Shown here: piece after piece, positions 2,758-16,738 of the stretch
How the letters are laid out: every line of letters starts with the position of its first letter
Position numbering within the stretch: the first letter of the stretch is position 1
NCBI GenBank assembly: GCA_010356995.1
Contig: ML996704.1
Location: 108,404 to 172,403 of the forward strand
From: Trichodelitschia bisporula
Lineage: Eukaryota; Ascomycota; Dothideomycetes; Phaeotrichales; Phaeotrichaceae
Direction: 5' to 3'
Length of the DNA: 64,000 bases
Position numbers and translations under genes: made by a program
The notes under the pieces: generated by a model
What the model was told of the DNA's origin: nothing
What the model saw: the letters and a program-made list of their open reading frames with translations, nothing else
The model's database searches: none

Positions 2758-5011
2758 ATGCCTCACTTATTTGAGGACACAACTCCCACCACCTCACGTC
2801 CTCCGCTGACATCTACCACCTCGACCCCAAACAACATTGCCACTCTCAAGAAACAAGCTCAGCACTCAGCCATAGCGAAGGCTGTCCTGATGCAGAAAAA
2901 GCCGCATTCGATTGATACGGTTCCCAAGGTTGAGACGCGTTTGCGCCACCAAGTGCGCGATGACGACGACGACGAAGATCCTCCTCCCGGTGGGAGCGTC
3001 GACGGTGCGGTCCAGCCGCCGGAGTTGAAGCCCAACACCCGTTCCGACTTGCGGCACCTGCCAAAGAGTCTTCCTCCTCGTCCGACTACCAAGGAGGGTG
3101 CTGCTATCGGCGCTGCGCTAAGTGACACTCCTGCGTCATCGAATCCAGGTAGTCCATCGATGTGAGTTCTTGTGCATGCCTGTCTTCAGATTCAGACCTC
3201 TGATATCCAGCAGTCCTGCGATGAAGCCGCAGTCATACGCTTCGACTCCTCGTGTCCGCCCGACAACCCTTGACATTCCTGGTCTGACTCGTTCTCGTGT
3301 TTCGCCAGACGGCCGCATCTCTCAGCGTGACATTGGCTCTAAGCTGGTGATTGTGATGGTTGGCCTTCCTGCTCGTGGCAAGAGCTACATCACCAAGAAA
3401 CTCGCCAGGTACATGAATTGGCTGCAGCACGACACGAAAATCTTCAACGTCGGCGAGAAGCGCCGGCTTGTCGCGCACGCTATGGACGGCGATCACACAC
3501 ATCCTGTGCAGCTTGAGGGCGCTCAGCTGGCGGCTCAGATTCTCATGAGCGATGAGGCGGGTGGTCCCTCCACCCCGATCATCCCATCATTCAGTCTTAA
3601 CGACGCTGCCTTGCCTGTCCCCGGCGAATCTCCGGCGACCTCGCCGAACGAAGTGACCGGCGGAAAGACAGAGGGCCATACTCCCGTTACGGAGCAGACT
3701 GCAGAGTTCTTTGACCCTAACAACGCCGAAGCCGCGCGTATTCGGGAGCAGTGTGCGATCGATACCCTGGATGAGCTTCTGCAGTACATCCTCGTTGAGG
3801 GCGGATCCGTCGGTATCCTGGATGCCACAAACAGCACCCTGTCCCGCCGTAAGCTGGTGATGGAGCGCATTCGCGAGAAGGCGGGTGATCACCTGAACGT
3901 TCTTTTCATCGAGAGCATCTGCGAGGATGAGACCTTGCTCGAGTCCAACATGCGGCTCAAGCTTTCTGGTCCCGACTACAAGGACAAGGACCCGGTTGCC
4001 TCTCTTACCGACTTCCGGAAGCGGGTCGCCATATACCAAAAGAACTACGTTCCGCTTGGCGACTATGAAGAGAAGAACAACATGCCCTATGTCAAGGTTA
4101 TCGACGTTGGCCGCAAGGTCAACTGTCACCAAATCAAGGGGTTCCTCAGCTCCACTGCGGTGTCCTATCTGCTGAACTTCAATCTGGCCCCGCGTCAGAT
4201 TTGGATCACGCGCCACGGTGAATCACTTGACAACGTAGCTGGCAAGATTGGTGGAGATTCGGCCCTCAGCGAGAAGGGTGTCGGGTACGCGGTACACCTC
4301 GCGAAGTTTGTCGAGGCCCAACGCAAGGAATGGGACATTCGCCAGCGCGACCGTGCCGCTCATACTCACTTTCCCCCGCACCCTGGTGACCACACTCCGC
4401 CGAACCCTGTCTTCAGCGCAGGCCCCGAGGGCGAGATCCCTGACATGAACTTCTGTGTTTGGACCTCGATGCTCAAGCGCGGCGTTGACACCGCTCAGTT
4501 CTTCGACGAGGAGGAATTTGATATCAAGCAGATGCGCATGCTAGACGAGCTGAATGCTGGAATCATGGAGGGCATGACCTATGAGGAAATCAAGACCAAG
4601 TACGAGGCCGACTACAAGCTCCGTCGCCAGGACAAACTCGCGTACCGCTATCCGGGTCCCGGCGGTGAAGGTTATCTCGACGTCATCAACCGTCTTCGCC
4701 CGGTCATCGTCGAGCTTGAGCGCATGACCGACCACTGTCTGCTCATCACCCATCGCTCCGTGGCTCGCGTTCTGCTTGCCTACTTCATGGGTTTGCGTCG
4801 CGATGAAGTCGCCGATCTGGACTGTCCGCTTGGAATGTTGTACTCACTTGAACCGGTATGTATTCTTCATTTGACTGTCTAACTGCGCTAACAAATGCCG
4901 CAGAAGCCATACGGCGTCGAGTTTAAGGCCCACCGCTACAATGAGAAGACGGGCTGGTTCTACCATCTCCCCGACTTCCAGCTGCGTCCTTCGGCCGAAG
5001 GTCACCTTTAA
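2758..5011 (+). CDS. 6-phosphofructo-2-kinase / fructose-2,6-bisphosphatase
   Basis: Exons 2758-3161, 3211-4855 and 4904-5011 keep frame and encode 718 residues. The enzyme makes and degrades fructose-2,6-bisphosphate, the cytosolic regulator of glycolysis versus gluconeogenesis. About 180 poorly conserved N-terminal residues precede the kinase domain, whose P-loop GLPARGKS is at about residue 185. A kinase-domain insertion rich in Pro/Ser/Thr precedes FFDPNNAEAAR, and VGILDATNST follows. The phosphatase domain has the catalytic RHGES (about residue 468) and the LLITHRSVARV segment (about 645), so both activities look intact. This differs from yeast PFK26, in which the phosphatase His is replaced (family knowledge). 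The second intron splits the last 35 residues. The start is the first ATG in frame after the CT-rich leader. Confidence 0.93.
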
Positions 5012-5926: not shown

Positions 5927-6640
5927 AAAAAAAAGCGCCAAGGGCGTTGTGATGCTGTCAGCCTGAAGGTGGGGCGTCGTCTCTAGCCCTGTACGAATTG
6001 GGAAGGGTTGGCGGGCTTTGGGGGGGGTGCTGCGGCATCGTGAAGAACGCCATGCACACCGCTGAAAATGTACGCCAAGACTTCCCATTGCATCTCACTG
6101 GGCTGGAAATACCATACAATTAATTCTGATTTCAAAAAGGCGCGTTGCGATGTTGTGCCCGCATCAGGCTGAAGATGGGGTGTCGTGCACGGCCCTGTCC
6201 GACTTGGGAAGGTTTTGCATGGTGTGGCGGCGGTGCAGCGGCATCGCGAGAAACGCAACCATGCAGCTCAAGATGCCGGCTTTACCTTTCCATGGCAAGT
6301 GTATCGGGTCATGATACTTTACGACAGCTTTCGGCTTTCAAAAATGCTGTTATCACGTTGTGGGTGCGTAAGGCTGAACATGGGATGTCGTGCATGGCCC
6401 TGTCCGAATCAGGAAGGGTTGGCGTGCTTTGGCGGTGGTGCAGCGACGTCGTTGAAAACGCCGCGCACACAAGTTGGGTACTATATTAGGCTCCTAGAAC
6501 CCTGTTCCTAATTAGGAAAAGTAACGAATCATTTGAAGCTTCGAAAATCCTCGTTGAGACGTTGTGGTCGCATCAGGCTGAACATGGGATGTCGTCTCCG
6601 GCCTCGTCCGAGTTGGGAAGGAAGGCTGAATCACGTGAGC
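5927..6640. repeat. Degenerate tandem satellite, four units of about 204 bp
   Basis: Four related units begin near 5927, 6131, 6336 and 6539, so the period is 203-205 bp. Each opens with a short A-rich motif (TTCAAAAA-like), then a GTTGTG block, a CATCAGGCTGAA-like block, a GGGATGTCGT-like block and a TTGGGAAGG-like block. Units 2-4 are most alike and the fourth is shortened at its right end. On the - strand the units share a short translated core (FPxRTGxxTTPHLQPD-like). Any DNA repeat would give that, so it is not evidence of coding. Confidence 0.75.
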
Positions 6641-7545
6641 AGGGTTCGAACAACATGTCTTCGGAGGACAGGTCAGAGCACTAGCGCGTCTCATGCGACT
6701 CGGGCGCAAAACTGTTGCGCCTTCATATCCTGCGCTACTTGTAGGGGCGTCAGGATGCTTGATTGCCTTGCATGTCCTATTTCGCATGGGATTTACAATT
6801 TTTTTGAAATGTCGGCATTCAGAGCCGGTTGATTGACTGCGAGTTTAAAGCATTCCTTTGAGATTTATGTCTGTTTAATGCCAAAAAGTGACTTTAAGAA
6901 AGCGAGAATTTGAAAATGGAAAGGTTAGGCAGAAGGATGTGAGGATGGAGCACGAAAGCTCAGTCTGTGGGTGATGTTTTACGCCATTCACCAAACCGCC
7001 TACGAGGAAGACAGACCAAACTGCCGACGGAAAAAGCCCGTCGTGGAAACATGTCAATACTTTCAATATATACCGCATTGAAATGCTGATGGGGGAGCAT
7101 CCTTATGGGAGCAGTCGCCATCTTCAACATCCACCTGCGACACTCGGGATGCATGGTTATACCGAGCCTTCGAAAATGCTTCTTGGGCAGCCCTTCTCAG
7201 AAAAGCCGTGCTTGCCGCTATATTTTTGCCACACTCATGGCCAAAGCTGTATAACCGGAACTTTCCACTGGACGTCGACGCGCCGCCGCTCGCGGCCCGT
7301 GCACCTACGATAACGGCACGAGCCAAGGCTGAATCTCTGCAACGCCATGGTGCCTATGCGTACCAGCATAACACGACGCGGTCTGTGCTCTGTGGGGTAT
7401 AAATACTGATGGCGGTGGCATACGACAACCTCGCCACATCATTGCGCGACCAACAGTGGCGTCGGCAAGCAGAAGCCGACTGTGAATCACAATTTGTAAT
7501 AAGTGGCAAAAGGGAACAGGCTGGAAGATTCCAGGGGACAATCAC
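6641..7545. other. AT-richer region without a supported gene
   Basis: Only short frames are present, with no motif I recognise and no plausible splice chain. It separates the satellite from the relic of the small-gene cluster. Confidence 0.4.
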
Positions 7546-8360
7546 TTGGATATATAAACACAGTCTCTCTCGTTGCTAGAAAATCAATCAAGTCAATCCT
7601 TTCTCACACAAGTCTTTTGGTACCTTCCAACTGTTGGAAGGGGCCAGAAGGATCAGATTGATGTTAGACGGATTCCCATTTGTTACAGCCTTCTGATATT
7701 GTAAGTTCCTGTATCACTTCGCGCTCGGTATCTTTGTTGCCGGTATCCGTTAGCGCTCGGGATTGCGTACTTCCGTTGTCTTGTTTCATCGTATCTTTGG
7801 CTCGACGCCACTCCTGTTCCATATTTCCTAAATAGTACGAGTTGCCCACCTGGTACACTCGACAGTTCAGTCTACGTCAATCAACAGAAACCTTTGTTTC
7901 ATCTGTTCTCAGCTTCTCCAGTCCAACAATTGATAATCACGGAGTTCGAGTGTGTTCTAGTTCTTTCTGTTTGCGCAAGCATATTCGCCATTCTTTATGT
8001 ATATATATGTCAATAGATAGTTAGGTTGCAGGAAATTGACCAACTCATCGCAATACTCTAAGACCCTAAAGTTACAACAGTTTCTAAGCCTGATATCCCG
8101 GCGGCCTCCTACGACCGCAACAACGCTCGCGAGGCCGAAGCTCAGGGCAGCACTGGTGGCTCCGATGAGTAGACCAACACCTTCACCAACTTCTCAGTGG
8201 CTCTGTACCCTCCATATGTAAGTCAAGAACCACTTGCAATGGACATGAGGCCAAGATCTCCAGTGACAGCAAGATTTGGCCAAGGGCTGTGGCCAGCAAT
8301 AGATATGGCTGGGTAACCTTTGAGGAGCTGCAAGGGTTAGGTGCTCGGATTGCATACTCA
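7546..8360 (+). pseudogene. Relic A', degenerate copy of cluster gene A
   Basis: The 3' part at about 8070-8177 matches the end of gene A. It reads DIPAASYDRNNAREAEAQ, then a short Gly/Ser tail and a stop, against EIPAGFYERQFDNRD in A. Similarity continues past the stop: both copies have a CCATATGTAAGTCAA or CCATAGGTAAGTCAA donor-like site and a downstream block ending GGGTTAG or GGGTTTG, which looks like a shared 3'-UTR intron. A TATATAAA-like box at about 7549-7556 could be its old promoter. I find no intact upstream exon chain, so I call it a decayed duplicate. The extent is approximate. Confidence 0.5.
7549..7558 (+). promoter_or_regulatory. TATA-like box upstream of relic A'
   Basis: A TATATAAA motif is followed by a CT-rich tract, the same arrangement as upstream of gene C. 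It is about 0.5 kb before the recognisable relic exon. The assignment rests on context only. Confidence 0.3.
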
Positions 8361-8664
8361 CGTCATTTGCTCAGTGTTTTCGGGCTTAGATTGTTCAAGG
8401 CTCCGTCCCAGTTGTAGTTCTAGCTCGAATTCCAAAAACTTCAAAAATATGTTCGTGCTTTGATGTGACATTGATGCCATTAGAGACTGTAATATTCTTC
8501 TGGCGCTCTATGCAAAGAAAGCTGAATAATATCCTTGGTCATCTCGTCCGCCCTGAATTTAGCACACTGAAACAATTGGCGGCTCTAAAGAAGGTCACAG
8601 TACCAGCGTCTTGCTCAAAACGGAGTCGTAATCAGGAAGAAAATATATACCGTAGCACAGTTGA

Positions 8665-8832
8665 AATGAAAACGACCCAGTCACACAGCAATGAGAAATC
8701 AATTCGGCTTTTCGGTGCCGCAGGCCACAAGCAAGTTAGCGAACCTCGCTAAGAGCCGAGCAACACCCCTGTCCGGTTTCGTCTGGCATCGCGGCATAGG
8801 GGGAGCTGCCCGAACAGCCAACTTTTATAGCC
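8665..8832. repeat. Direct repeat copy 1 (left of gene A)
   Basis: The core at 8716-8832 begins GCCGCAGGCCACAAGCAAG and includes GAACCTCGCTAAGAGCCGAG. It matches 10736-10861 closely over about 120 bp. Weaker similarity extends upstream and includes an AT-rich segment. It lies about 540 bp after the stop of relic A'. Confidence 0.8.
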
Positions 8833-9181
8833 TTGATAGAAGGTATGGTGGTCTCAGGACATGCTATAATGGGATCTAAATCCTAGAAATCCTGTAGCCC
8901 TGCTAGCGGCCAAAGCGATAACGCCGGCCGAGTCGCCTTCAGGCCATTATATCCTGGCTGTTTCAGAAACACCAGACTTCGGAGCGGCAAATCATCAGGC
9001 CGCCAAAAGTCTTATTATCTCATATCCCAATACTGTCAACTGAAAACCTGGGATGGCAGCCCCTCAATGGTCCAGAAGGTTATAGAAGAAGGCGGTATGG
9101 CAGGCCCGTGCCAAGGTATCAACGGGCAAAGCAAGCACCGCGTACCTGCCATTTACGGCCTATCAACTGGCAGCGCAGGAC

Positions 9182-9466
9182 TTGGAGCTTGAGCCATCTA
9201 TGACCTTAGCTCCATAATGCTGCCATAAAGGTCCAGGCCGCGAGCTTTCAAACCATTTCTTCTACAACCACTGCTCACAGCATACTGAGAGCTGCATCCT
9301 ACCACTCATCCTAGTAAGTACCTTTCCTTTGCAATCTCTCTCCCTCGTCAACGCAACAGTTGGAGCTCAAGTCATCTGTATCCTTGGCTTTTAAATTCCT
9401 TAAAGCTCCTGGCCACATATTTTTCAACCATTTCCTTTACAACAGCAGCTTACAGATTGTAGACCC
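9182..9466 (+). repeat. Duplicated leader segment of gene A
   Basis: Two imperfect copies of about 105 bp occur at 9182-9291 and 9360-9466, about 177 bp apart. Shared blocks are TTGGAGCT, a CCTTAGCT or CCTTGGCT block, and TTTCAAACCATTTC or TTTCAACCATTTC followed by TACAACA and a CTTACAG or CTCACAG. A GTAAGT donor at about 9312 lies between them and a CAACAG acceptor precedes the second copy, so part of this is probably a 5'-UTR intron of gene A. Confidence 0.6.
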
Positions 9467-9561
9467 TCACCACATACCACAACTTCTAACATATCGTCCA
9501 ACCCAATTTCATCTTATCCTCAATACCCCAAAGCACTCTTCAGTCCATCTCTACTACCACA

Positions 9562-10240
9562 ATGAGTTCCACCTGGACTGATCTGGCCAAGGCCTTTGGG
9601 GCGACCGAGGAGGTCCGGAATCCTCCCGCCACCACGACCGACAAGGCTAAGAAGCCGCAGGCCACGGCCAACCCGAGTAAGTTGAGCCCTCATTGCATTG
9701 GCGTGTCTTAAGCAAGCTGACCATACCTACAGGCCAGCCTGTCCGTAAGGATACTGGGGCTCGTCGCTCGACTGCCACTCCCAAGGGGAAGCACCGCCGT
9801 GCCTCCTCCAACCTCTTCGAGACTGCCCGCCCTGATCATCTCGACCGTCGTCGGACAATGCTCCAGAAGGCCAAAGCGATGGGCTCGAGCAAGGCCCAGG
9901 AGTTCGATGATGAGCAGTACTTTGATGCAGCGGATGAGTGTAAGATAACCTTGCTAAATTGGAAAATTTAGCTAACTATGGGTACAGACGAGTTCATGCT
10001 CAATCCCAAGGGTATGAACAAGTCGCGCAGTAGGTTTATCCCAGGCTTGAATATGATCATGAACTAACATCTGCTCTAGTGAATAAGCGCAACTCCCAGG
10101 TCATGGCACACCAGCGTCGTCAGTCGGAGCAGGTTCAGCAGCCCGAGATCCCCGCTGGCTTCTACGAGCGTCAGTTCGACAACCGTGACTTCGCGTACGA
10201 GGCCAAAGCCCGGGCGGCCGCCGTTCGTGACAAAGAATAG
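9562..10240 (+). CDS. Cluster gene A: small basic protein of unknown family
   Basis: Exons 9562-9676, 9733-9939, 9988-10029 and 10080-10240 encode 174 residues. All three introns are phase 1 and carry GTAAG or GTAGG donors and TACAG or TCTAG acceptors. The protein starts MSSTWTDLAKAFGA and is rich in Lys, Arg, Ser and Thr. It has several RRxS-type sites (RRST, RRAS, RRQS), which are motifs of basophilic kinases such as PKA. No signal peptide, membrane segment or known domain is visible. The 42-nt third exon encodes YEFMLNPKGMNKSR, and the matching exon of gene D encodes DTFMMKSRRMKSTH. Exon 2 also aligns loosely with the first exon of D. A nuclear or nucleic-acid-binding role is possible from composition alone. 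It is flanked by direct repeats. Confidence 0.7.
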
Positions 10241-10735
10241 GCATTCCTATGAAACTTCCCAGAGGGCCAGTTCCCATCCATAGGTAAGTCAATGGCCATT
10301 TCAACGGACATGAGCTAATTTCCTTCAGCGCCAATTTACTTAGCCAGGGGCAGTGGCTAACAACGGATATGAATGGGGAATCTTTGGGAGTTTGTAGGGT
10401 TTGCTTTCTCATGACTACTGTACTTTGCGACTAGAATGGAATGCAAAAAATGTGCAATATGCCTGCTTCAATGTGACCTCGCTGCTATGGCAAGCTGTAA
10501 CACTTGATTAGCACTTTTTATAAAGGATGTTAAATGACATACTCTGAAGCCTTGCCCGCACTGAGTCCGGCAGATGCAGACAGGTCGCGATTCTTAAGAT
10601 GGCAGTGTATAGGCACATTTCTCAAAGGAAACCATAAGTAGAGTAAAAATTCTATTTAAACGCAGCTCAGTCAAGATGGAAGCACTCCAGTGGCACAAAA
10701 GAGAGGGTCACGAGGGGGTTCAGTCGGCTGGCTAG
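10241..10735. other. 3' flank of gene A, no gene
   Basis: It starts with a 3'-UTR that has a GTAAGT-to-CAG intron-like segment resembling the flank of relic A'. It then becomes AT-rich sequence without a supported frame. Confidence 0.45.
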
Positions 10736-10861
10736 TGCCTCAGGCCACAAGCAAGTTAAGCGAACCTCGCTAAGAGCCGAGCAATACCCCAGCACGCCCG
10801 GTCCGATTTCATCCAGCATCACTGTATGGGGGGCAGCTGCCTGAACTGACAGTCTTTAGCC
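10736..10861. repeat. Direct repeat copy 2 (right of gene A)
   Basis: Second copy of the 8716-8832 core, with the shared blocks CAGGCCACAAGCAAGTT, GAACCTCGCTAAGAGCCGAG and CAGCTGCC. It lies about 500 bp past the gene A stop, as copy 1 lies about 540 bp past the A' stop. The duplicated unit was therefore gene plus 3' flank plus repeat, about 2.0 kb. Confidence 0.8.
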
Positions 10862-11690
10862 AGCTAGCAGCCCTGAAATTACAGGAGCTGAGGTTTGCCC
10901 GGGTGTGGCGCGCGTCTGATTAGCTCCGAGCTTTACTTCCTTGTTGAACGCGTGATCAACCGTCCGAATGCCCTGAGCTTGAGGAGATTTGAGTTTTGTT
11001 TTGACATCGACTGTGAGATGTACCCATCCAGATTGAAGACTGAACGCTTGCAAAAATGTAGTACAAACACCAGGTAACTCTATGTCTGTGTGATGCCGAA
11101 GTGACTTGACATCCATAAATAAGCACTGGATTTGACAGAGCAAAGCCTCATGCTCTACTACGAATTGTCCACGTGGGCCACAATCAAGGGATGTAGGGCT
11201 GCTTGTTACGTTTGGAGCACTGCCATATCGAATATTTGCGATGCTACAGCATTGTACGCAGCCAAACTCAACAAGATTCAAATACCATATTTGCTGTGTG
11301 TCAGTGTCCGCCAAGTGTGGCTGCATCCGTGGATATAAACTGTGATATTTGTAAACTCCTCGATGGAGGCATACCTATATTATGAGAAGCAGACCACCCC
11401 TATTGATGCCGTTAAATGGCGACGCACTGGTTGAGAGCGACAGCGGATGCTTTACATTCGGTATTCCAGTTGGGAACGAAACATGGGATAAAAGACATAC
11501 AGTATACCAAATGTTCTCGGAATAACGCACTGCGATGCAAAAGACATAAAAAGCTCGAGCACCCAGCCTTAACTGCTTGGCACCCGCATGCTGATCAAAA
11601 TGCTTAGCGTCAACTCTCTTCGAAACCTTTCCTCTACAGCCTCCACACTGTTCACATTCGACGAACATCGTCAGTCCTGCGCTCACTTTG
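10862..11690. other. Upstream region of gene B, no supported gene
   Basis: A - strand frame of 156 codons (10856-11326) has no recognisable motif and I do not accept it as a gene. Near 11690 a CACTTTGTAAGTTT donor matches the CTACCATGTAAGTC donor in the leader of gene C, which suggests a 5'-UTR intron ending at about 11787. Confidence 0.4.
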
Positions 11691-11787
11691 TAAGTTTTTG
11701 TTCCCTCCCTCGTTCTCCCTCACATCGTTTTCTTCCATCCTTCCACGGTCACCTAATACCCAGCAATAAGTACTGATATTGTTGCAG

Positions 11788-12397
11788 ACATTGCTGAATT
11801 TGAACCAAAACACCTGTCCCCAAAGCATCATCAAGGCTCCCAGCTGGAAGGAAAAGGTTCTCGAGATGAACAAGCATGGCCCAAAGCTTGGGAAGGACAC
11901 ATCGGCCCCTGATGGCAACACCGATACTTCGGCTGGTGTCGGTAAGCTTTCACACTCCGAGAAGCTCTTATTCATGCTAATCACGCCGTTATAGCTAGCA
12001 CCCGCACGGCTATATGCCCGGTCGCAAGTCATCCTACGCTTGCAAGGTCATCATGACTGGTCCACAGGGGGGTCAAACGAACGACAAAGCTGCTGAGGCT
12101 ACCACCAACGGGACTGTTGGTACGGATAACGTTGACGGCAGTAAGACTTAACTCATCCCATTTGTATTTGGATACTGACATCGACAGACGAAAACGTCAC
12201 CCCGAAGGCTGCCAAGCTCCGCCGCTGTAAGTGTTTAACCGGAATGTTGATAAGCCTGCGCTTACTCTCATATAATCTCAGAGGCGGGGGTCGCGGGCTC
12301 GGGTCGGAAGCGTCGTTGGACCCTTCTGGATGCGAAGGCGATGGCTTTCACCTCGCAAGATACGGGTGTCTGGGAGGATATACCGGGGGAGAAGTAA
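11788..12397 (+). pseudogene. Cluster gene B: diverged, probably broken paralogue of C
   Basis: Exon-like blocks are 11788-11941, 11995-12140, 12188-12226 (39 nt) and 12282-12397, with introns at the same places as in gene C. The last block read in the C-like frame gives KRRWTLLDAKAM and ends WEDIPGEK, against KRRSTLLGKKAK and WEDLQEED in C. In the homologous phase, exon 2 does not stay open after exon 1, and joining the mini-exon to the last exon makes a TAG. I therefore think it is a pseudogene, unless other splice sites or the start at 12014 are used. All three introns are very similar to those of C while most exon sequence is not. Confidence 0.55.
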
Positions 12398-12914
12398 GGT
12401 CTCCTTTCGGTTGCAACTCATGGCTGGGAGTCGGGCAAAGGAGAGGTGGGTAGAGCCATTTTCCTACAGTAGATAGCTAGGCGTCAGCCGCAAATGTCAC
12501 ATATTTAAGCAGTCAAGCAAGTTTTGAATGAACACGTGGAAGAGAACTTGAAGAGATAACTTACTCCAGGTTTCTGTGTTCAAAGTAAAACGTATAAAAG
12601 TATCGACATTATATATCTTGCGGCCATCTCAGCTCTAGCGAGATGTGCCCCTTGAACGCTTTCAGTTCACTGACTGAAAGCGGGCGATGCTATATCAGAC
12701 AGAAGGTGGTAACGAACGTCCCCTGAAGTGCTCAGCACACAAGCACTATATACTCAAGATGAGAACGTACTTGAGACGAGAGCGGCCTCAGGGCGGATTA
12801 AAGAAGGCCCCCGTTACAAGCTCAGTGGCAGGAATGAGCTCTTGGGTCCTCCAGAGCACAGGCCGGCAAACATAGAGAAGACCGAGCACTTTGATGCTTG
12901 GCGGCTGCCGGTCT
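12398..12914. other. Spacer between genes B and C
   Basis: No supported gene. It contains a short inverted repeat at about 12659-12682 (GCTTTCAGTTCA with TGACTGAAAGC) and ends at the promoter of gene C. Confidence 0.4.
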
Positions 12915-12916
12915 GG

Positions 12917-12927
12917 CTATAAAAGCC
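12917..12927 (+). promoter_or_regulatory. TATA box of gene C
   Basis: GCTATAAAAGC sits inside a near palindrome and is followed by a CT-rich transcription-start-like tract at about 12930-12960. A GTAAGTC donor follows at 13044 in the leader. The start codon of C is about 420 bp further on, leaving room for a 5'-UTR intron. Confidence 0.5.
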
Positions 12928-13346
12928 AGCAGCAAGCTCTCTCCAAGTCTCCTCCATTACAGCCACACCCAACACTCTCTTGCTGTCCCATTACTGCTTT
13001 CTGAACAACCGTTCCCGAACAGTAATTGCTTTGCGTCTACCATGTAAGTCTCCGTCCCTCTCTCTCATAGACACTCGCCTTTCACTACTGTATTTCATCC
13101 TCCTTATATCACCTCCACCTACTGCACCAAAATCGCGTCAGCATAACATTTCCACTTTACAACTCACGTGTACCTTTGTTTTCCTTCATCCGGAAGTCCA
13201 TCTCAGACGTGCCTTTGTTTACCACATCACTTGCTTGGAAACTTCAGTACACAAGACGAAGCGAGGTTCAGGAGGCAAGTATATGTACTGGCATTGATGC
13301 AGTCACTTCCAAGTTCCAAGAACTCCATCAACGTTCACAAGCCATC

Positions 13347-13934
13347 ATGCCTTTGGCCGACATCTTTCGCGAGGCGGCCGAGGACGCTTACAAGCTTGAC
13401 AAGGAGGCTTTGGCCGCTAAGGAAAAGGCGGCCGCTTCGGAGCGGGCCAGTAAGTTTTCACTCCCCGAGCGCGTGTTCTTCATGCTAATTGCGCTTTACA
13501 GTTCAGGAGGAACAGGTCAAGGCGTCCGGCCGCAAGCCGATCATGCAGCGGAAGGTCACTCGGCCCCGTGCCGTCACGATCCTCCGCAAGCAGACTCACG
13601 TTGCTCTGCCCACCATGAAGCCCACTGCGAACGCTTCCGTCGAGGCTGAGGGCAAAGAGAGTAAATTCAATTCATCCCACTTGCAGTCGATGCTGACATG
13701 GACAGACAAAGAGGCCAAGGGTGGAATGGAGACTATGTTCCGTCGCTGTAAGTAGTTATCGACACTGCCGATGAGCCTGCGCTTACCTTTATAGTCTCCA
13801 AGATGCGAATGTCTTCTTCGGCTCAGAAGAACAAGCGCCGTTCCACGCTTCTGGGCAAGAAGGCGAAGTCCTCTAGCACCGACGGCACTGGTGCGGAGGA
13901 CTCCGCTTGGGAGGATCTCCAGGAGGAAGACTAG
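13347..13934 (+). CDS. Cluster gene C: small charged protein of unknown family
   Basis: Exons 13347-13449, 13502-13660, 13706-13747 and 13795-13934 encode 147 residues, and all three introns are phase 1. The N-terminus is an acidic/basic Ala-rich helix-like stretch (MPLADIFREAAEDAYKLDKE). The centre is basic and the C-terminus is Ser/Lys-rich with KRRSTLLGKKAK, then an acidic tail with WEDLQEED. There is no signal peptide, membrane segment or known domain. The 42-nt exon encodes NKEAKGGMETMFRR. The KRRST site is a candidate basophilic-kinase target. It is the intact partner of the adjacent B and shares intron positions and phases with A and D. I do not recognise the family and assign no function. 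Confidence 0.7.
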
Positions 13935-14241
13935 GGAGGGAATTGCTGGGCAGACGACAGTGAGCAGATGGTTGGCTCCCAGGATGCCTTTCCTCCGGAC
14001 TTGACATGATTTCCTCTGTAGTTCTTCTAGCATAGCGACACGTTGACAGAAATTGCACACCTTGCACAAAAGATTGTTCGTGAGCTGTGGCACATCGTCA
14101 AGCAATGAATGTGACATACCCAAAAGACATGGAAGGCCAAGGTGGGGGCTTAATTTCGGAACTGCTTGAGTACTTGCGTCCTGTCATTTGAATCCAAAGA
14201 GCTTAAAGATATCCATACCTCTTGTCGACACCGACCACACC

Positions 14242-14808
14242 ATGACCCCCGCTGCCGCCCCATCAGTTAAGACCCCAACGAAGCTCCGCCGCCCTCCACC
14301 GCGGGTGGAAAAGGCCGCCTTTCCCAGCTTCATCAAGCCGAACGAGAACCGCGCAAAGATGATGTTCAACAACGCGAACGCAAAAGACATGAGCCTCGCA
14401 GAGGCGAACGCCATCACCTTCGATGAGATCAATGCTGGTAAGCCCTGAGTGATTCGAGGGATGAGACGTTGGAGATCCCGAGGCCGGAGGGCCTAGTACG
14501 GATCGTACGGCGATGGGCGGGTCGAGGTCATGGTTACCGTGGGTATGGTTGTTTATTGTTATTGTTATTGCGGAGTGGTGAGTGGTGAGTGGTGGTCACG
14601 GAGGTCCGCATCAAGATCACAACGCTAGTGGCTGACACAGAGATACGTTCATGATGAAGTCTAGGCGGATGAAGAGCACCCACGGTAAGCGGATATCACC
14701 GATTCATAGACATGAGCTGACCTTGTGCCAGAGAAAAAGCGCGACGGCAGCTCAAGGGGCACAATTACCGCACGCCTGAGCAGGCGGCGAAGCCGGGTAC
14801 CCCATTGA
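14242..14808 (+). CDS. Cluster gene D: short member related to gene A
   Basis: Exons 14242-14437, 14643-14684 and 14732-14808 encode 104 residues with phase 1 introns. The first intron is 205 nt, long for this window, and uses the acceptor ACACAGAG. The immediately preceding CAG would give a stop, so this acceptor is chosen by frame and by the match to gene A. The protein starts MTPAAAPSVKTPTKLRRPPP, continues with a Lys/Asn-rich segment, then the 42-nt exon product DTFMMKSRRMKSTH, and ends in an Arg-rich tail with SRRRSRVPH. The exon order and the FDE plus mini-exon pattern match gene A. No localisation signal beyond basic clusters is visible. Confidence 0.55.
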
Positions 14809-14979
14809 GAACGCGCGGAATCGTGCCGACATACCTAAGTCGGGGATCGATAGCCGCTGTGTTCTGTATTGACTGCAAATGAACATCCAGAACGAAAGGT
14901 GGCAGCTGATCGGACTATGAGCAAGGTGTAAGGCGAATCTCCACTTCGGGCATCTTGGATTCATTCAGCATGATCAGCA

Positions 14980-15582
14980 AATGACGGAAGACGCTGAGGT
15001 TGAACTCTGCTTCAAGTGAGTGCGTTGAATTTTTTAAGATGCAACACTGGTCGGAACGATGCATTCCTTAGTGCACAGTTATTTGATGCCTTGGCCTGCG
15101 TTACGATGCTTTGGCGACCAAACTTAGATCGCCCAAGCACCACAACGCAAGCGCAGGCATCAAGAAACTACGCATTAAGGAATATATCCAACCCGTCCAC
15201 GAGAAGCTTGCAGATACGCGGATCCCTCTATCCCGAGGAAGTCATCAGAATCCAGCGGAAAGAAATCGAGGCAACCGACGAGGCAACCGACGAGGCAAAA
15301 GCGGAGCTGTTCGCCCCGCAGCACCTCCCTCCATCAACTTCCGCGAACCTCAACGACATTAATCCAGAAGATATCCTACCTCGAATACCGGAGGTCTTCT
15401 TTGGGGTCGTCATTGACGAGGTTGTATCCGAGATGAAGTCGGGAAGCGGCACGAGCCGTTCGCTAGAGCGGAACGTACCCCTGTCTGCCGCGGCGATTGG
15501 CAAACAGATGATACAGTTGCCTTCCAGGCTTCAGCTTTTGAACCGATGTCGTAAAAATCAGCTTGACGGCGGTTCGGTCTAA
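14980..15582 (+). CDS. Hypothetical protein, model uncertain
   Basis: A frame of 188 codons from 15016 to 15582 has an acidic middle (EEVIRIQRKEIEATDEA), an EDILPRIPEVFFGVVIDEV segment and a basic end. An ATG at 14980 followed by a GTGAGT donor could be an earlier exon start. A second frame at 15111-15362 is Lys/Arg-rich and may be part of a spliced product. I do not recognise a family. It directly follows the small-gene cluster and may or may not belong to it; it lacks a visible 42-nt exon. Confidence 0.35.
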
Positions 15583-15604
15583 CGTTACGCCTGTCAATTC
15601 AGAT

Positions 15605-16738
15605 TCATCCGCGGTGGAGGCTGTTCCCAGGGAGTTCCTCCATGGCAGGGAATGGAGGTTCCTCGTGAAAGCTGGCGCTTATCAGCAAACTGTGGCGCGC
15701 TCGGCATGAGAACGGGACGCGCAACTCATTGGCTTTGGCATTGCAATGATGGATGGGCTCTTCGATGCGACAGGAACGGATACAGCTAATTGGGAGAAGC
15801 AGCGGTATCCATGGAGAGTTTCGTGAGAAGACATCCAGTTCCCACAAGCGGCGCCTCGAGGCGGACCATACTTGCAAGGACGATTTGTCGAGGTTCATGG
15901 TACGCTCACCGTCCCGGTCATGGACCCATAAATTTCTGAGCCATACGTTGAGCAACCCAGGAATATATCCGAAGATGAGAGGTAGTCTGGAGCCGCATGC
16001 TCCAGCAGATGGCCATGATGTTCCAAGGGTTCGGACCAGGGCCGTCCAATCTGCGAAGCATGTCGGCGAGGTGAGCTAGACATGGAGGCAGACGTCTGGG
16101 CTTGTTGTCTCCATCGGCCATCACAGGCTAGACACATGTACCGTGGGTGAAGACATAGGGAGCCCGCCAGAGCGTCGTCGGATTCAGTGAGAGCATGTTG
16201 GGCGCGGCATGTCCATGGACATCCTCGGAATCAACACTCCGAAGAGCGATATCGACACTATTGTCTACTCTTAGCATACGAAATGGTGCATACGGACGGG
16301 AAGGAAGTCCAGACGGATCAGTGATACCTAGCTCCACATCACCAATCAGCTCCCGCACACTAGCGACTTCGACGCCCCAAGCTTCCCATTGCATGGTCGC
16401 TTCGAGGTTCGTCGGCAGGCATGTGATGCATGGGCTCCACCACCTCTCCCGTCGCGCTGCAGAAGGCTGACATTGCTTTTGCAGCACAGTGGTAAGGCTT
16501 ATCGCATCCCAGGATGTTGGCGACATGGTGCGGGAGCTCGTCATCCGGCACCACATCATCGCGAGCTACCCCTCTCGCGTTCGTCGTCGATCGCCCCGCA
16601 CCGGGCGGGCGGACGGCTGAGCTGCTGCCATGTGGGAGGGACCGGTTCGGCTGTTGCGTCCTGCCTCGCGTTGGTGGACGGGCGATAGGGCCAAAGTTGG
16701 TCGGCGATGATCGAATGAGGCGCTGCGGGGAAGCTCAA
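15605..16738 (-). other. Unassigned - strand reading-frame series
   Basis: Successive - strand frames look protein-like: 16556-16738, 16360-16560 (ELPHHVANILGCDKPYHC), 16128-16460 (SVRELIGDVELGITDPSG), 15918-16124 (PNPWNIMAICWSMRLQTTS) and 15605-15955. They are in different frames without clean splice junctions between all of them. This fits either a decayed gene or one whose introns I cannot place. No family is recognised. Confidence 0.3.

Follow-up and report, generated by a model that had tools for sequence, protein, structure and literature searches.

Bicycle genes, which encode putative plant gall effectors of aphids, have about 17 exons on average and a minimum of 5, and almost all of their internal exons are in phase 2 (PMC9168663). 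Here, we analyse a 64-kb window, that is, the whole stretch of DNA under study, from the 25.65 Mb genome (30 contigs) of the fungus Trichodelitschia bisporula (Dothideomycetes, order Phaeotrichales), in which five copies of small genes, named R, A, B, C and D from 5′ to 3′, lie one after the other on the forward strand. As with the bicycle genes, sequence similarity is not enough to reveal kinship, which is read instead from gene structure, namely small internal exons of almost uniform phase; unlike them, the copies described here belong to a fungus, have four coding exons and phase 1 introns, show no apparent signal peptide and number only five (PMC9168663). The bicycle-gene definition given there, at least five exons with internal exons in phase 2, does not cover A and C.

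Our gene models indicate that the cluster consists of two intact genes (A and C) and three relics (R, B and D), which is the pattern left by birth-and-death turnover. We consider it about an even bet (probability of roughly 0.5) that these copies are a tandem family restricted to this lineage, which encodes small basic proteins and descends from a single ancestral gene through such turnover. Literature searches brought up no published description that we recognised as this cluster.

Two other kinds of families offer a comparison. The fungal conidiation proteins CON-6, CON-8 and CON-10 are short, hydrophilic, developmentally expressed and thought to be intracellular, and the predicted products of A and C are likewise short, hydrophilic and probably intracellular. 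Unlike CON-6, CON-10 and other small fungal families described in Pfam, they reach no Pfam family at its cut-off and have no homolog in the protein collection that we searched. Venom gene families encode secreted toxins of animals, and their introns are more conserved than their exons between paralogs. The same order, intron identity above exon identity, is seen between B and C, but the proteins here are basic and free of cysteine, and the contrast comes from one pair, of which one member is broken and the flanks show as much divergence as the exons.

The predicted exons of A lie at 9562-9676 (115 nt), 9733-9939 (207 nt), 9988-10029 (42 nt) and 10080-10240 (161 nt, stop codon included), and those of C at 13347-13449 (103 nt), 13502-13660 (159 nt), 13706-13747 (42 nt) and 13795-13934 (140 nt, stop codon included), giving predicted products of 174 and 147 amino acids. 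The six introns are all in phase 1, and the penultimate exon, with a phase 1 intron on either side, is 42 nt long in both genes. A custom gene finder was trained on the window and 200 kb of sampled genome, about 255 kb once positions 7000-16000 had been masked. It reproduced A (score 28.4) and C (score 19.3) to the base, exons and phases included, and called nothing else within 7-16 kb; when the cluster was left in the training set, the same two models came out. At a score of at least 8, the finder trained with masking predicted no gene in 1,584,000 dinucleotide-shuffled and 264,000 reversed bases. Each of the six introns carries a branch-point-like motif 9-13 nt 5′ of the acceptor, and all donor and acceptor scores are positive. 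The coordinates and splicing of A and C are exactly those proposed by the sequence-only reading, an earlier interpretation made from the letters and their open reading frames. That reading had also given the 42-nt penultimate exon and uniformly phase 1 introns to A, C and D; this is correct for A and C and doubtful for D, whose acceptor scores -1.3 and whose frames disagree.

The background against which this skeleton can be judged is a small sample of 62 other predicted genes, all computed models. Of their 64 internal exons none is 42 nt long and 8 measure 30-60 nt, 40 of their 118 introns are in phase 1, and none of the 17 genes with at least three introns has all of them in that phase. From these counts, the chance that C would match the skeleton of A is about 1.6e-4, calculated as (40/118)^3 x (8/64/31), a post hoc figure from a small sample, and by this figure the skeleton shared by A and C exceeds chance. 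The same figure speaks against a different account of the locus, in which R/A/D and B/C are two unrelated tandem families that are neighbours by accident and share a 42-nt phase 1 penultimate exon by coincidence.

The three relics are decayed to different degrees. Of R, an A-type relic, the end of the last exon remains (8070-8171) and aligns with A at 10122-10240, with 66 of 103 positions identical in the exon part; over the longer regions R 8070-8819 and A 10122-10850, the DNA score is 891 compared with 113±15 for shuffled sequences (z 50). B (11847-12397) is a broken C-type gene made of the exon-like pieces 11847-11941, 11995-12140, 12188-12226 and 12276-12397, the last of which resembles the fourth exon of C. 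It has no ATG at the start site of C, the frame of its exon 2 is broken and the aligned end of intron 3 lacks AG; the sequence-only reading had called B degenerate, with 39 nt at the place of the mini-exon (12188-12226). D comprises a piece aligned with A exon 2 (14242-14437), a 42-nt piece aligned with A exon 3 (14643-14684), which requires a weak acceptor (CAGAG, score -1.3), and a last exon-like piece aligned with A exon 4 (14732-14882), for which acceptor 14732 (score 3.0), the one used in the sequence-only reading, leads to a frame unlike that of A and acceptor 14734 (score -0.1) to an A-like frame. With one or two poor acceptors needed, D looks decayed. It received no call from the gene finder, whose intron-length model, centred on about 49 nt, penalises its 205-nt first intron, and the view of D as a third intact gene is not supported. 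Repeat-induced point mutation was also considered; the dinucleotide indices are 0.78 and 1.3 in the cluster, slightly above 0.6 and 1.21 in the remaining window. Transitions and transversions number 137 and 155 between B and C, 140 and 116 between R and A, and 134 and 154 between A and D.

How do the copies group? Each DNA region comparison was scored against 40 shuffles, and 18 control pairings involving three control stretches reached at most z 3.7 (control with control) and 3.5 (A with control); z values of 5-6 are therefore above the controls, yet not far above them. B 11766-12454 and C 13281-13968 match with z 48, and A 9984-10329, which includes its 42-nt exon, matches D 14639-14969 with z 5.0. 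In protein comparisons, p is about 0.001 for A-D and for B-C, 0.004 for A-R, 0.15 for A-B and 0.51 for A-C. The reading of D used in the A-D protein test was picked partly because it extended the match; the signal that is free of this choice consists of exon 2 (p 0.012), exon 3 (p 0.036) and the DNA score. The likeness of A and D is weak: D is absent, at E<=20, from the matches of a tblastn search with A over the window and the 200 kb of sampled genome. It is nonetheless significant, and the 42-nt exon of the two was probably inherited from a common source. These comparisons modify the earlier impression that A, C and D have little sequence in common, which is accurate for A and C and not for A and D. 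In B, every intron matches its counterpart in C better than any of the 118 background introns does, and tblastn with C recovered the last exon of B only at E 0.21. By sequence, then, R, A and, weakly, D appear as one branch and B and C as another.

The two branches might be tied together by their position and their skeleton. An intergenic block is present at 8172-8830, 3′ of R and 5′ of A, and again at 10241-10860, 3′ of A and 5′ of B; the two copies align with a score of 806, and none of 180 genomic control stretches scored as high. Since the DNA between R and A and that between A and B are copies of one another, B occupies the place expected for a copy of A, a positional argument against two unrelated families. 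Within the first copy, the part at 8690-8830 matched one other genomic place, at 79%. A 32-nt stretch of the block (8738-8769 and 10759-10790) is 97% identical between the copies and is conserved above the neighbouring coding relic.

The regions ahead of A, B and C are organised in a similar manner. A script scan found a TATA-like box (CATAAA) at 9224 and a donor (GTAAGT) of the type seen in introns of 5′ untranslated regions (5′-UTRs) at 9314 in the putative promoter region of A (9224-9314); in that of B (11545-11690) the CATAAA box is at 11545 and the 5′-UTR-intron-type donor at 11690, and in that of C (12918-13044) a TATAAA-type box is at 12918 and the donor at 13044. In all three, a strong donor thus follows the box by 90-145 nt, ahead of the start codon. 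R has a TATA-like box 150 nt ahead of a donor, and D has neither. The 5′-UTR region of A also contains an internal duplication, 9223-9280 being repeated at 9398-9455 (58 nt, 72%). The upstream DNA of A (9093-9346) matches that of B (11459-11721) with z 6.4, and upstream scores are 200 for A-B, 167 for A-C and 155 for B-C. Among 54 upstream controls, the A-B score was reached by none against A and by one against B, the A-C score by none against either gene, and the B-C score by one in either direction. This is suggestive of homology among the promoters of A, B and C, and the A-B and A-C similarities count against unrelated families.

A number of results weigh against a common origin of A and C. 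The promoter similarity is weaker once the upstream control pairs are pooled: among all 1431, a score of 155 is attained by 132 and one of 200 by 35. Neither R nor D resembles A in its upstream DNA. The proteins of A and C show no similarity, either locally (p 0.51) or exon by exon (p 0.42), and a profile comparison between the A/D and B/C alignments was not significant (P 0.22). Over the whole region, A and C DNA match with z only 2.3. Their introns are mostly ordinary in their resemblance; the best, intron 3, is equalled by 7 and 2 of the 118 background introns. The sole look-alike motif is displaced, being RRRTMLQKAKAM in A, 5′ of the 42-nt exon, and KRRSTLLGKKAK in C, 3′ of it. The protein similarity of B and C is confined to exon 4 (p 0.13, 0.14 and 0.22 for exons 1-3), and the second intron of D is at least as close to the third of C as to that of A. 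The lack of protein similarity between the branches, the mostly unremarkable A-C introns, the weak pooled promoter control and the dissimilar upstream DNA of R and D are all what two independent families would give, and we regard such an origin as possible, though on the unlikely side.

We infer common descent of A and C from the shared skeleton, their adjacency and the suggestive promoter similarity, and on this inference the skeleton is probably older than the divergence of the two branches. In the ancestral gene, a TATA-like promoter and an intron in the 5′-UTR would have preceded four exons, the penultimate one of 42 nt, separated by three introns in phase 1. Its duplication in tandem would have given the intact A and C as well as the decaying R, B and D, and the skeleton would have endured after the proteins of the A-type and C-type branches had ceased to be recognisably similar.

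The pair B and C also allows coding and non-coding divergence to be compared. In a MAFFT alignment, 102 of 144 intron positions (71%) are identical compared with 214 of 410 exon positions (52%; Fisher p 9e-5), and the difference persists when splice motifs are removed from the introns (52/76, 68%; Fisher p 0.012). Gap columns number 40 in exons and 5 in introns. A count with a more lenient aligner (exons 243/389, introns 110/144, Fisher 0.003) was replaced by these values, its exon figures being near shuffle level. The exon excess could reflect fast coding change before B decayed. Two observations argue the other way: the flanks of B and C have diverged to the same degree as the exons (5′-UTR exon 21/45, 47%; 3′ flank 14/40, 35%), and exon 4 of A and R, 64% identical, is no more diverged than their 3′ flank (62, 59 and 80%). 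Because the untranslated flanks of B and C fare no better than the exons, the introns may be held back, by constraint or by conversion; the end of the B-C 5′-UTR intron is identical at 17 of 21 positions. Given these flank counts and the lack of an exon excess between A and R, diversifying selection on the family is possible only. The sequence-only reading had described a fast-diversifying family, for which the lower identity of the B-C exons is favourable and the equally diverged flanks make the case indecisive.

The same flank values, together with B-C differences of 45, 44 and 54% at codon positions 1, 2 and 3, which give little sign of constraint, would also be expected if a once-functional locus were simply decaying, with A and C as its last copies, exons drifting without diversifying selection and short introns kept by constraint or conversion. 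Three of the five copies are broken, and neither A nor C was found in the protein collection, which favours such decay; on the other side, the frames of A and C are complete, their splice sites are usable and their RRx[S/T] sites are kept above chance. We think this account unlikely. A bolder reading would be a fungal family held together by its skeleton (four exons, all introns in phase 1, a fixed 42-nt penultimate exon), whose coding content is replaced by diversifying selection and whose relatives in other Dothideomycetes are missed by sequence searches, and this version appears to us still less probable.

The predicted proteins are strongly basic and hydrophilic (A, isoelectric point 9.9 and grand average of hydropathicity (GRAVY) -1.27; C, 9.7 and -0.94) and contain no cysteine. 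They had been expected to be short, basic and rich in serine and threonine; the first two properties hold, and the third does not, serine plus threonine amounting to 23 of 174 residues in A and 21 of 147 in C. The motif RRx[S/T], chosen post hoc after the proteins had been seen, occurs four times in A, three of them in exon 2, compared with 0.22 expected (none of 2000 shuffles had as many), and twice in C compared with 0.12 expected (p 0.0045). In the family as we prefer to see it, the products would be small proteins, basic, hydrophilic and free of cysteine, that show no apparent signal peptide and are probably intracellular. They might be flexible, a basophilic kinase such as protein kinase A might phosphorylate them at several RRx[S/T] sites, and their genes might be transcribed from the TATA-like promoters in a particular developmental stage. 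This functional part of the proposal, intracellular flexible phosphoproteins with stage-specific expression, is tentative and in our judgement rather doubtful. Divergent tandem layouts are also found among secreted effectors and antimicrobial-type peptides and other fast-diversifying fungal families, and a role of that kind might come to mind for A and C; with N-termini in which no hydrophobic stretch was seen by eye, negative GRAVY values and no cysteine, we hold it to be highly improbable.

Do these proteins have known relatives? In Pfam, A gave only CD99L2 (E 0.096), C only Wound_ind (E 0.41) and rRNA_processing (E 2.8), all below cut-off, and D nothing in either of two readings; in NCBIfam, A gave no match and C only a phage capsid model below cut-off (E 0.94). 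A search of PDB sequences with A found no match. In a collection of 5.8 billion proteins, in a search reaching relatives of similar length that share exact 5-residue words, none of 62 candidates for A was retained at E<=1e-3 and none of 413 for the B/C alignment at E<=1, so that within this search the genes have no homologs outside their lineage, as orphan families are defined. The absence of a known domain in A, C and D and the novelty of a small-protein cluster with a shared skeleton, as first suggested, are therefore upheld across Pfam (A, C, D), PDB (A) and this collection (A, B/C). The same collection searched with the neighbouring 6-phosphofructo-2-kinase returned 3286 matches, the best of which is named Trichodelitschia, and the best 120 of these include at least one Trichodelitschia protein as well as Tothia, Verruconis, Venturia and many other Dothideomycetes. 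Since the collection thus holds Trichodelitschia and its relatives, A and C may be absent, at similar length, from the annotation of their own species, and may be missing from current annotation. A caution in the other direction is that the evidence available to annotators may not have called A and C. Protein searches of the species' own genome with A, C and D, and DNA searches, gave no result; these are weak negatives, as the searches were insensitive (the C query missed the known copy B, and the A and D queries missed each other). Used as tblastn queries over the window and the 200 kb of sampled genome, A and C brought up no clear new copy, the best matches outside the cluster having E 0.11 (A) and 0.046 (C).

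The neighbours of the cluster are ordinary genes. A 6-phosphofructo-2-kinase gene lies at 3122-4879 of the window, and its protein matches a Trichodelitschia-named protein at 99%; others encode a SET-domain protein, a class III aminotransferase, an M1 peptidase, a formin, the 75 kDa subunit of complex I and CDC50. An Rfam search and a tRNA scan over the whole window gave no result. The cluster region (6001-16000) has a G+C content of 0.48-0.53, below most of the remaining window (0.52-0.61). Just 5′ of it, at 6001-6621, a unit of about 205 nt occurs in three imperfect copies, where a tandem repeat finder gave no array. At 15058-15188, 3′ of D, is an inverted repeat with 65-nt arms, 1 nt of spacing and 75% complementarity, and at 15267-15298 a 12-nt unit is repeated in 2.7 perfect copies.

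Taken as a whole, the earlier observation is partly confirmed and its interpretation partly supported. Trichodelitschia lives on dung. If A and C were unrelated, its genome would hold here a small and unremarkable tandem array of orphan genes that may lack annotation. If instead A and C derive from one gene, the positions and phases of the introns at this compact fungal locus would record a kinship that has been lost from the protein, and the relics would show the steps. The locus would then favour gene searches based on structure in fungi, a group with many genes classed as orphans.

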